From positions 1,116,001 through 1,180,000 of the forward strand of contig NZ_CP047942.1 in NCBI RefSeq assembly GCF_014279835.1: a stretch of DNA of 64,000 bases, in the 5' to 3' direction. The position numbers and the translations under genes were made by a program. The stretch's first letter is position 1, and each line of letters begins with the position of its first letter. The notes under the pieces are model-generated. The model saw only the letters and a program-made list of their open reading frames with translations, was not told the origin of the DNA and searched no databases. Below, in pieces: positions 13,201 through 16,045 of the stretch. Source of the stretch: Synechococcus sp. MVIR-18-1 (GTDB taxonomy: Bacteria > Cyanobacteriota > Cyanobacteriia > PCC-6307 > Cyanobiaceae).

Positions 13201-14004
13201 TTAATTTCCTGTTGGCATTTTTGCTATCAGCTGCTCCTCTAGAAACATATTGAATTCAAATAATTGTTCATCGCTGAGTTGTTGCCTTGATGTTGCTCCT
13301 AATTTTGATTGAAGGAAACTTTTTGCCCGTTCTTGATCCCATTTCAGGGTCGTGAGTATTTCGTCCCCTTGCGTGATCAAGTCGCCTCTGCGTAGAGGCG
13401 TCTGGACTGCACTGGCTTCTGCTCCTACTTCGAAGCTTTTCAGCTTATTGAGATAGGACACTAGATCGCTATACCTCGTTAATTTGTGCCTGCTCCCATG
13501 TCCATATGCTCGCTCTAAATACATGTGTTCATTCTCACGGGTCCATCCGATGCGCTTAAGTTGTAGATCGATTGCGGTGAGTTCTTCGCTCCAATCGTCT
13601 GGGTCTATCGGTGCCTCGCTCGGTTCTGAGATCTGTTCTGTGATCGTTTCGGCGATTTGTCCAGAGACTGCTTTTGGTTGCGATTTCTGATCTTGAGACG
13701 GGGCTAATCGCGATGGTTCTGATCGGCTTTGCTCGTTTTTAGCTTCAACTTGTTGCTTTTTTGGTGGCTTGGCTTCTCCCTGTTCTTGTTTTTTTACGGA
13801 ACTTTCTACGGGATGCTTTCGTTCAGTGGGTGGCTTTGCCATAAGGACCCTTTGTACGAGCCGCTCTCGTGCACGGTCTTCTGCTTGCTCTGCATCAGCA
13901 GCCTCTCCTAGCGAGCTGCCGAGATCCTGTTCACCCTCGATGCCGCTGACACGCACGACACATCGGTCGCTATCGATGTGGCAAATTTCGACCTTTGTCT
14001 TCAT
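13201..14004 (-). CDS. Hypothetical protein with disordered linker and two C-terminal repeats
   Basis: A 267-aa protein. Residues 1-60 form a compact alpha/beta segment (KVEICHIDSDRCVVRVSG, then a charged helix). Residues 61-135 are a Lys/Gln/Glu/Pro-rich linker. Two related segments of about 45 residues follow, at 145-188 and 213-258, sharing the pattern W-x4-E-x4-(F/Y)-L-x4-G-x2-SR-x2-L-x8-L and likely forming small helical units. I do not know the function; the basic linker and tandem small domains could suit nucleic-acid or protein binding, but this is a guess. Start is the first ATG. Divergent from terC. Confidence 0.75.
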   Translation of the reverse strand: MKTKVEICHIDSDRCVVRVSGIEGEQDLGSSLGEAADAEQAEDRARERLVQRVLMAKPPTERKHPVESSVKKQEQGEAKPPKKQQVEAKNEQSRSEPSRLAPSQDQKSQPKAVSGQIAETITEQISEPSEAPIDPDDWSEELTAIDLQLKRIGWTRENEHMYLERAYGHGSRHKLTRYSDLVSYLNKLKSFEVGAEASAVQTPLRRGDLITQGDEILTTLKWDQERAKSFLQSKLGATSRQQLSDEQLFEFNMFLEEQLIAKMPTGN

Positions 14005-14041: not shown

Positions 14042-14764
14042 ATGGATTCAGCAGCCCTACCATCTTTAACGCCTTTTCTCGATGGCGTTGATCGATGGGC
14101 TGAGCTCTTACCTCTCCTTCCAGTGCTTGTGGCTTTGGAGCTGGTACTCTCCGCCGACAATGCCATTGCCTTAGCTGCTGTTGCTCGTAAGCAAAACGAT
14201 CCAGCTCAGGAAAAGAAAGCGCTCGACTATGGAATTGCGATTGCTTTTTTCCTCAGAGTTGCCTTGATTTTATTGGCTCAGTGGGTTTTGGCGTTTAAAC
14301 CGTTGCAACTCCTTGCCGGTGTTTATCTGCTGTGGCTCTTTCTTTCTCATATCTGGTTCAAGGCATCAAGCTCTGAGACTCCCTCGGGATCCTCAAGGCC
14401 TGCATCTCCGATCTCCTTTACAAAGACGATCGTTGCATTGGCCTTAACCGATCTAGCTTTTTCAGTCGATAGTGTTGCTGCTGCCGTTGCGATTAGTGAC
14501 CAACTTATTCTTGTGATTACCGGTGCTTTCATTGGTGTTGTTGCACTACGCTTTACTTCGGGACTGTTCATTCGTTGGCTTGATATTTATACACGATTAG
14601 AAACTGCGGGCTATCTTGCCGTTGCTTTAGTAGGCGTCAAACTTATTTCTACATTGATCTTTTCTGACTTGCAACTGCCTGAATGGTGGACGTTGTTAAC
14701 TGTTGCGCTACTGATGATTTGGGGCTTTTCAGAGCGGAAAGAGCCATTGGCACACGAAGTTTGA
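14042..14764 (+). CDS. TerC-family integral membrane protein
   Basis: A 240-aa membrane protein of the TerC/YkoY family. About seven hydrophobic segments form two halves, each with the family acidic motif: ALELVLSADN at 31-40 and ALTDLAFSVDS at 134-144. In this family these aspartates sit in the membrane, and members are linked to metal (Mn2+) export or thylakoid protein insertion; the substrate here is not known. It is followed after 4 bp by the DUF6464 gene and then by the riboflavin-kinase-like gene, so the three are probably co-transcribed. Confidence 0.88.
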   Translation: MDSAALPSLTPFLDGVDRWAELLPLLPVLVALELVLSADNAIALAAVARKQNDPAQEKKALDYGIAIAFFLRVALILLAQWVLAFKPLQLLAGVYLLWLFLSHIWFKASSSETPSGSSRPASPISFTKTIVALALTDLAFSVDSVAAAVAISDQLILVITGAFIGVVALRFTSGLFIRWLDIYTRLETAGYLAVALVGVKLISTLIFSDLQLPEWWTLLTVALLMIWGFSERKEPLAHEV

Positions 14765-14768
14765 TCTG

Positions 14769-15107
14769 ATGATTGTTGAACTTCGTCAGTCCGTCAGTCT
14801 TGTTTTGCTCGCCCGCATGGAGTCGACTGATCCTCCAACGCCTGGGCAATGGTTTCTGCATGAACATGTCAGCTACCTCGTTATGCAACGACGACATCGC
14901 TATAAGTTGCACTCTGGTCGTTATGAACTCTCTTTGATTGTTCTCCACGTTAAAGCTCAAAAGCAGCCTGCTGATGCTCACTTCGTTGGTCATGGTTGGG
15001 TGATTGGAGACTCTGATTGTCGCTTTAATGCTTTGAGTCCTCTGCTTCGTTGCGCCGTGTTGCCTGATGGACCATGCGATCGTTGTGTTCATAGAGAAGC
15101 GCGCTGA
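14769..15107 (+). CDS. DUF6464 family protein
   Basis: A 112-aa protein matching the cyanobacterial DUF6464 pattern: a beta-rich region (LHEHVSYLVMQRRHRYKL, then YELSLIVLHVKAQ), the core GWVIGDSDCRFNALSPLLRCAV, and a C-terminal CDRC pair. The cysteines (C82, C94, C102, C105) could bind a metal. Function unknown. Its TGA overlaps the next ATG by one base (TGATG at 15105-15109), indicating coupled translation. Confidence 0.75.
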   Translation: MIVELRQSVSLVLLARMESTDPPTPGQWFLHEHVSYLVMQRRHRYKLHSGRYELSLIVLHVKAQKQPADAHFVGHGWVIGDSDCRFNALSPLLRCAVLPDGPCDRCVHREAR

Positions 15108-15595
15108 TGACCTCCCTTAGCTGGCATGCTGCTGTTCTTCTTGAGGGACACGGCGTCGCTTCTGGTCAAGCTTTGAATTCAGTTCATTTAAAGACATCTC
15201 CGTACCCCAAGGGCACGATTGCGATGCAATCACCCTATTTTGCGGCGTTAGGGCTTGATCTTTCCCCATTTTGGCCTGGAACATTAAATCTTTCATTTTC
15301 ACCTGTAGAGCTCCAGCTTAGGAAGCCTGATTATTTTTTTCAGGATCTTGAATGGACCCATTTGCATCCTCCTGAGACTTTTTCGTTTTGGAAGATTCGA
15401 TTGCGTTCCATTGGTCGTAGTGGTATTAATGTGCCTGGTTTGGTTTATTATCCACATCCAGAAACGAAGGCCAGGCATTGGCAAAATCCATCTGTACTGA
15501 AAATCCTGGCTCCCTATGTTGGTCCCATTTGTTTGAATCAAGCGTTTGAGCTCGGGGTGGATCCTACGGCTATCCAAATCTTATATTCTGTTTAA
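15107..15595 (+). CDS. CTP-dependent riboflavin kinase-like (RibK/DUF120 superfamily) protein
   Basis: A 162-aa protein. Its motif order follows archaeal RibK: an N-terminal strand GVASG (16-20), an LGLDLSPFWPGTLNLSF segment with the GTLN motif at 58-61 (Thr and Asn of this motif hold Mg2+ in the archaeal enzyme), a central beta region, PGLVYYPHPETKARHW (110-125), and KILAP (132-136) followed by a leucine helix and a closing strand (AFELGVDPTAIQILY). The glycine-rich N-terminal loop differs from archaeal RibK and is longer. Cyanobacteria normally make FMN with RibF, so the substrate may differ. The similarity is by eye; I rate the fold as likely and the activity as unproven. Confidence 0.6.
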   Translation: MTSLSWHAAVLLEGHGVASGQALNSVHLKTSPYPKGTIAMQSPYFAALGLDLSPFWPGTLNLSFSPVELQLRKPDYFFQDLEWTHLHPPETFSFWKIRLRSIGRSGINVPGLVYYPHPETKARHWQNPSVLKILAPYVGPICLNQAFELGVDPTAIQILYSV

Positions 15596-15832
15596 TAGTG
15601 TTTTTACGGTTTGTAGGCAATCTTTTGGGTTGTCGTGTTTATGACTTGTCTGATTGTTGGACTAGCGTCTTTTTTTGTGAGTCATTGTGTTTTGTCCATG
15701 CTTTTGCTTGATTGAATCATTTTTGCCGCTTATTGCGCTTAGCTTTTACGGATTCTCTGAGTATGGTTCGGTTGTAGTTCCGTAATGAGCAACACTTAGT
15801 GAGTGGTTCTCAATTGTGCTGGTGGAAACTTG

Positions 15833-16045
15833 ATGACGGACGCTGATCGCATTAAAAATCGCTCAGTATTGCTTGAATTTTTAAAATTCAGGGTCTTGGC
15901 GGCTGGTGAGGAGTTTTTTGACAGCACGGGCTTGGAGCATCGACGTCAGTGGTTGGCGTTGGTCCATCCGCAAGCGCTTGTTCTGTCCGATGAAGACCTA
16001 GAGCAGATTTGGAATCAAGCTCGCATCCTTTATACGGAGTGTTGA
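15833..16045 (+). CDS. Small hypothetical protein
   Basis: A 70-aa protein from the ATG at 15833, preceded by GGTGG about 8 nt upstream. Predicted to be helical: LLEFLKFRVLAAGEEFF, then HRRQWLALVHPQ and a final DLEQIWNQARILYTE. It resembles short conserved picocyanobacterial proteins of unknown role, but I cannot name it. An in-frame start at 15803 would add ten residues. Confidence 0.55.
   Translation: MTDADRIKNRSVLLEFLKFRVLAAGEEFFDSTGLEHRRQWLALVHPQALVLSDEDLEQIWNQARILYTEC

Follow-up and report, generated by a model that had tools for sequence, protein, structure and literature searches.

A cyanobacterial protein family with the predicted fold of archaeal CTP-dependent riboflavin kinase and altered signature positions

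The window analysed here (64,000 nucleotides of the Synechococcus sp. MVIR-18-1 genome) carries a gene whose product resembles the archaeal CTP-dependent riboflavin kinase RibK, and this resemblance stands as one of fold and distant homology, as judged from a predicted structure and from sequence profiles. The protein should be described as belonging to a RibK-fold sister family and not as a RibK member, since it scores under the cut-off of PF01982 (DUF120) and lacks the presumed CDP segment with Arg115. By a slim balance of probability, the conserved residues point to a Mg2+-dependent RibK-fold phosphotransferase with another small-molecule acceptor and perhaps another donor.

The RibK fold is known as the archaeal route to FMN, and among bacteria from a handful of DUF120 proteins. 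A strongly conserved family of its own, in cyanobacteria that already bear RibF, would mean that the small-barrel kinase fold has been recruited for another reaction, and the RibK-like protein, small and easy to purify, is a concrete target in the search for it. Moreover, the gene is common in marine Synechococcus, which are globally abundant.

The RibK-like gene and its surroundings

An earlier note, made from the DNA letters alone, had proposed an archaeal-type RibK at 15107-15595, in one transcription unit with genes for a DUF6464 and a TerC protein. The ORF is indeed intact (162 aa), and the motifs on which the proposal leaned, i.e., GTLN at residues 58-61 and KILAP at residues 132-136, lie where they had been placed. 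The TGATG overlap between the DUF6464 ORF (14769-15107) and the RibK-like start is likewise present, as is the 4-bp gap between the TerC and DUF6464 genes, although TerC (14042-14764) comes first in the row, upstream of DUF6464, and not behind it as the note had it. The features, in order along the window, are:

13201-14004, minus strand: slr1353-family protein (NF058667), divergent from TerC and syntenic in picocyanobacteria
14042-14764, plus strand: TerC-family membrane protein of the YkoY subfamily (TIGR03716), first gene of the row
14769-15107, plus strand: DUF6464 protein (PF20065, E 7e-30) of 112 aa with four invariant Cys, overlapping the RibK-like start as TGATG
15107-15595, plus strand: gene of the predicted RibK-fold protein, 162 aa, with ATG at 15107 and stop at 15595; G14, T59, N61 and PHPETKxxHxQ conserved, Lys at position 132
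15278-15289, plus strand: GTLN motif, residues 58-61 of the RibK-like protein, of which Thr59 and Asn61 align to Thr43 and Asn45 of the archaeal RibK MJ0056
15500-15502, plus strand: codon 132 of the RibK-like gene, AAA (Lys), where 49 of the 50 family sequences code for Glu
15833-16045, plus strand: small protein of about 70 aa, a separate ORF here, which opens with GTG at 15803 and has its likely start at ATG 15833

Searches of Pfam, NCBIfam and PADLOC with the window protein alone returned no match, and PF01982 found no match in this genome. The gene is at present a hypothetical protein, outside any Pfam or NCBIfam family.

Fold and distant homology to archaeal RibK

The AlphaFold model of the window protein (pLDDT 91.6, pTM 0.88) was best matched in VIA-align by MJ0056 (PDB 2vbv, the complex with CDP and FMN), with a Z of 13.7 and an rmsd of 2.5 Å over 127 residues. 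Ranks 1-6 were all archaeal RibK or RbkR proteins (e.g., RbkR TA1064, PDB 5trd), rank 7 followed at Z 6.3, and the flavokinase modules of bacterial RibF (PF01687) showed a weak structural similarity at Z 5-6. The RibK match arose by re-alignment of Foldseek candidates; in Foldseek's own ranking RibK stood outside the top 50, with no match at E <= 0.001. Over these 127 residues, the window protein is predicted to share the cradle-loop barrel of archaeal RibK. Of the helix and closing strand that had been proposed to follow KILAP, the C-terminal strand was recovered and the helix was not: residues 135-145 were predicted as coil, followed by strands at 146-151 and 156-160.

Since a sequence-profile search of solved structures was uninformative (two chance matches only), profile-profile and structure comparison were needed. 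With hhalign, the family matched nine RibKs at E 2.6e-8 (probability 95), and on trimmed alignments the score was 48.9, whereas 200 column shuffles reached 25.8 at the highest and reversed columns gave 12.1. PF01982 was weakly matched by 9 of 32 family members (best E 0.0069) and was the only Pfam family weakly matched by many, while the best NCBIfam match of one member was the PRK14165 riboflavin kinase (0.0067). When a RibK HMM was run over 3997 ORFs, family members ranked straight after the true RibKs. The MJ0056 sequence in these comparisons was verified against the PDB.

In a phylogenetic tree, the RibK-like family formed one clade, split from RibK with support 96/88 and on a very long branch; some RibK branches were also very long, and only this split, not the deeper order, is to be trusted. 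The case for a RibK fold in the modelled protein rests on structure re-alignment and sequence profiles, and on both the earlier note's central claim of an archaeal CTP-dependent RibK fold was borne out: the profile and structure comparisons, which it had put forward as a check, gave the significant hhalign match to nine RibKs and the structural match with RibK or RbkR on all of ranks 1-6 reported above.

RibK signature positions

We take Thr43 and Asn45 of MJ0056 to be Mg2+ ligands, Glu107 (in the EIIAP strand) to contact the flavin, and residues 112-115 to contact CDP. In the profile alignment, T59 and N61, the counterparts of Thr43 and Asn45, were present in 50 of 50 family sequences, and with both invariant in homologues across cyanobacteria the motif resemblance goes beyond chance. 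Like archaeal RibK, the family thus has the GTLN Mg motif, and it shares the first glycine of the G-x-G loop (Gly14 in 50 of 50 sequences; Gly16 in 35 of 50, the window protein included) and the C-terminal strand. It also shares the E-I-x-A-P strand: Glu107 is invariant in all nine RibKs compared, and its family counterpart, position 132, is Glu in 49 of 50 members. The K of KILAP is peculiar to the window sequence (AAA, versus GAA or GAG in the five close relatives checked). On this count the window copy departs from RibK at a third point besides the PF01982 score and the Arg115/CDP segment. No other sign of decay accompanies Lys132 in the window's RibK-like protein.

Other positions set the family apart. 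In the profile alignment, MJ0056 residues 112-115, including the invariant Arg115, fall opposite a 4-residue gap in the RibK-like family, and relative to RibK the window protein is longer by about 5 residues between the P-x-x-T region and the xILAP strand, so that the matching spacing claimed for all motifs did not hold throughout. Identity to archaeal RibK is about 15%, and scores lie below the PF01982 gathering cut-off of 25 bits, with the window protein unmatched at E <= 10 and the member at locus L072 reaching 13.2 bits. Unlike RibK, moreover, the family has the new stretches SPYPxGTIxMQ and PHPETKxxHxQ and its own invariant Gln41, Trp83 and Glu90, and its hosts are cyanobacteria with RibF. 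Read from the residues, the conserved pattern resembles that of a functional active site whose specificity has changed.

Distribution and conservation of the family

A single-sequence search detected RibK-like homologues in 30 of 291 cyanobacterial genomes, and a profile search found them in 46 of 386 genomes sampled from the phylum. All carriers found share the window genome's class. In the genus of the window genome, 13 of 24 good genomes carry the gene, i.e., it is missing from about half. Identity is 72-79% in the closest relatives and 36-49% in other families. A 32-sequence family alignment contains 22 invariant columns, and the residues invariant over 50 sequences are G14, A18-G20, G36, Q41, F45, G49, T59, N61, W83, E90, F92-F94, Y114, P116, T120, K121 and H124. 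Strict conservation extends over the stretches GHGVASG, SPYPxGTIxMQ, HPPExFSF and YYPHPETKxxHxQ, and a nearly invariant polar set comprises S19, Q41, E90, S93, Y114, H117, T120, K121, H124 and Q126. Against close relatives, the dN/dS of the gene is about 0.2, which indicates purifying selection.

Frameshifted or partial copies were found in three genomes (G255:C1:1066329-1066767, G266:C1:940463-940681 and G185:C8:66-278), and in one genome of the window's genus (G286, locus L106) the TerC, DUF6464 and small genes are in place with the RibK-like gene cleanly missing between the latter two. These broken copies and this clean absence show that the gene can be lost, and its patchy presence together with several broken copies fits a dispensable role. 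Phages and viral contigs held no relatives of the family, a PHROGs scan gave chance-level matches only, and no paper on DUF6464 or on the RibK-like family was found in the open-access literature.

Gene neighbourhood

Picocyanobacteria show a conserved gene order, i.e., slr1353 (divergent), TerC, DUF6464, RibK-like gene and small gene. In many of them the RibK-like protein and the small helical protein are fused into one ORF of about 215-230 aa, with the small protein C-terminal; the small gene also occurs in genomes without a RibK-like gene. The three-gene module suggested by the earlier note therefore stands as picocyanobacterial synteny and not as an obligate unit: DUF6464 is present in 105 of 291 genomes, mostly without a RibK-like gene, and the G286 row does without it. 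The three genes were found together in picocyanobacteria only; around the other carriers, the TerC-DUF6464 arrangement was absent. Among 16 non-picocyanobacterial carriers and two outlying picocyanobacteria, neighbour clustering revealed no recurrent partner beyond close relatives, and no flavin gene lay beside the RibK-like gene in the neighbourhoods examined. An Rfam search near TerC returned neither a yybP-ykoY riboswitch, a possible link of the unit to manganese, nor any other match. For DUF6464, the predicted structure matched no fold clearly (best Z 5.6).

Two genomes of a single genus have a cpYpsA domain (PF12694, SLOG) fused N-terminally to the RibK-like protein (L163:2951-3865 in G369 and L072:8006-8869 in G193), with PF12694 matches at E 1.7e-22 and 9.6e-32. 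In the G193 fusion, the first ~30 residues of the cpYpsA domain lie in another frame. SLOG-type domains are thought to bind nucleotide-derived ligands, and the fusion weakly favours a nucleotide-like ligand for the RibK-like protein; cpYpsA was not found in trans in the other carriers tested. A further RibK-like gene, annotated as hypothetical, lies behind a class I methyltransferase on a plasmid of Pseudanabaena sp. ABRG5-3 (NZ_AP017562.1; L090:9974-10435) that also has a MOBP relaxase.

Function of the RibK-like protein

RibF was present in all 25 RibK-like carriers tested and in this genome (26 in total), which indicates that bulk FMN supply does not depend on the RibK-like protein. The bacterial RibF flavokinase family is itself a beta-barrel kinase with a Thr/Asn Mg site; unlike it, the window protein has no PF01687 match, and the sole match of the genome, a separate RibF gene, lies elsewhere. 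With RibF in every carrier tested and several RibK signature positions changed, the sequence data favour the earlier note's alternative that the protein acts on another substrate.

Computation having shown the fold, the distant homology, the conservation and the coexistence with RibF, we lean slightly towards reading the RibK-like protein as a cyanobacterial enzyme of the RibK fold and a remote sister of the archaeal CTP-dependent riboflavin kinase. A nucleotide would serve as its phosphate donor and a small flavin-like or nucleoside-like molecule as the acceptor, with Thr59 and Asn61 holding the Mg2+ site for the transfer. Catalysis by the family is suggested by the retained T/N pair, first G-loop glycine and Glu of xEIxAP, together with the nearly invariant new polar set, and a change of donor and/or acceptor relative to RibK by the missing CDP segment with Arg115 and by RibF already making FMN. 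In the window's own copy, E132K may weaken or change the activity. Points against this explanation are the Foldseek miss, the lack of a Pfam match for the window protein, E132K, the lack of a substrate-pointing operon outside picocyanobacteria, and the patchy presence.

A bolder version is possible, if doubtful: the family could be a new cyanobacterial class of RibK-fold kinases with its own nucleotide site, a non-riboflavin acceptor and an undescribed metabolite. In picocyanobacteria, TerC and the fused small protein would link it to metal handling; in the genus with cpYpsA fusions, the link would be to a SLOG-type nucleotide-ligand domain.

Alternatively, the protein could bind a ligand without catalysing a reaction, e.g., as a sensor of a flavin, a nucleotide or a metal-nucleotide, and modulate the neighbouring TerC transporter or the small helical protein to which it is fused. 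The picocyanobacterial operon and C-terminal fusion agree with such a role, as do the absence of the conserved Glu from the window copy and the precedent of archaeal RbkR (5trd), in which the RibK fold is joined to a DNA-binding regulator. Nevertheless, the fully conserved Mg ligands and many polar residues are typical of catalysis, and most members outside picocyanobacteria have neither TerC nor DUF6464 nor the small protein beside them, so we consider this role unlikely.

A second genuine riboflavin kinase, one that makes FMN, perhaps with CTP or a different donor, to back up RibF or to salvage riboflavin or flavin analogues, would account for the shared MJ0056 fold and for the Mg ligands and flavin-contacting Glu kept in nearly all members. 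This is quite unlikely in view of RibF in all 26 carriers checked, the missing Arg115 and CDP segment, an invariant PHPETKxxHxQ stretch without RibK counterpart, scores far under the PF01982 cut-off, and no adjoining flavin gene.

Decay could be confined to the window copy, inactivated through E132K in an otherwise active enzyme family. Lys132 against the family's Glu would fit, as would the lack of the gene in about half of the genus's good genomes and its disruption in a few others; the open frame, the dN/dS of about 0.2 versus neighbours and the absence of a long terminal branch make it distinctly unlikely. Chance resemblance of short motifs without homology, for which the unmatched window protein and Foldseek's sequence-aware ranking might speak, is highly improbable given a whole barrel aligned at Z 13.7, the shuffle-controlled profile match and the weak but convergent PF01982 and PRK14165 matches.

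DUF120 proteins outside the archaea

True PF01982 members outside archaea are the bacterial DUF120 proteins, such as those of the Azoarcus plasmid pAZKH (L070) and of one cyanobacterium (L036). These either pass the Pfam cut-off, as L036 does, or group with archaeal RibK, unlike the window family with its separate long-branch clade. The L036 protein (1459-1869, G125) is a genuine PF01982 protein (E 1.7e-14), and a short frame of ~60 aa homologous to it was seen in the same genus (L044, G068); both are distinct from the window family. On plasmid pAZKH of Azoarcus sp. KH32C (L070:2378-3976), the DUF120 gene sits in a phenylphosphate carboxylase/UbiD cluster, between genes for a UbiX-type flavin prenyltransferase and a NUDIX hydrolase, and its product may supply FMN for prenylated-FMN synthesis.
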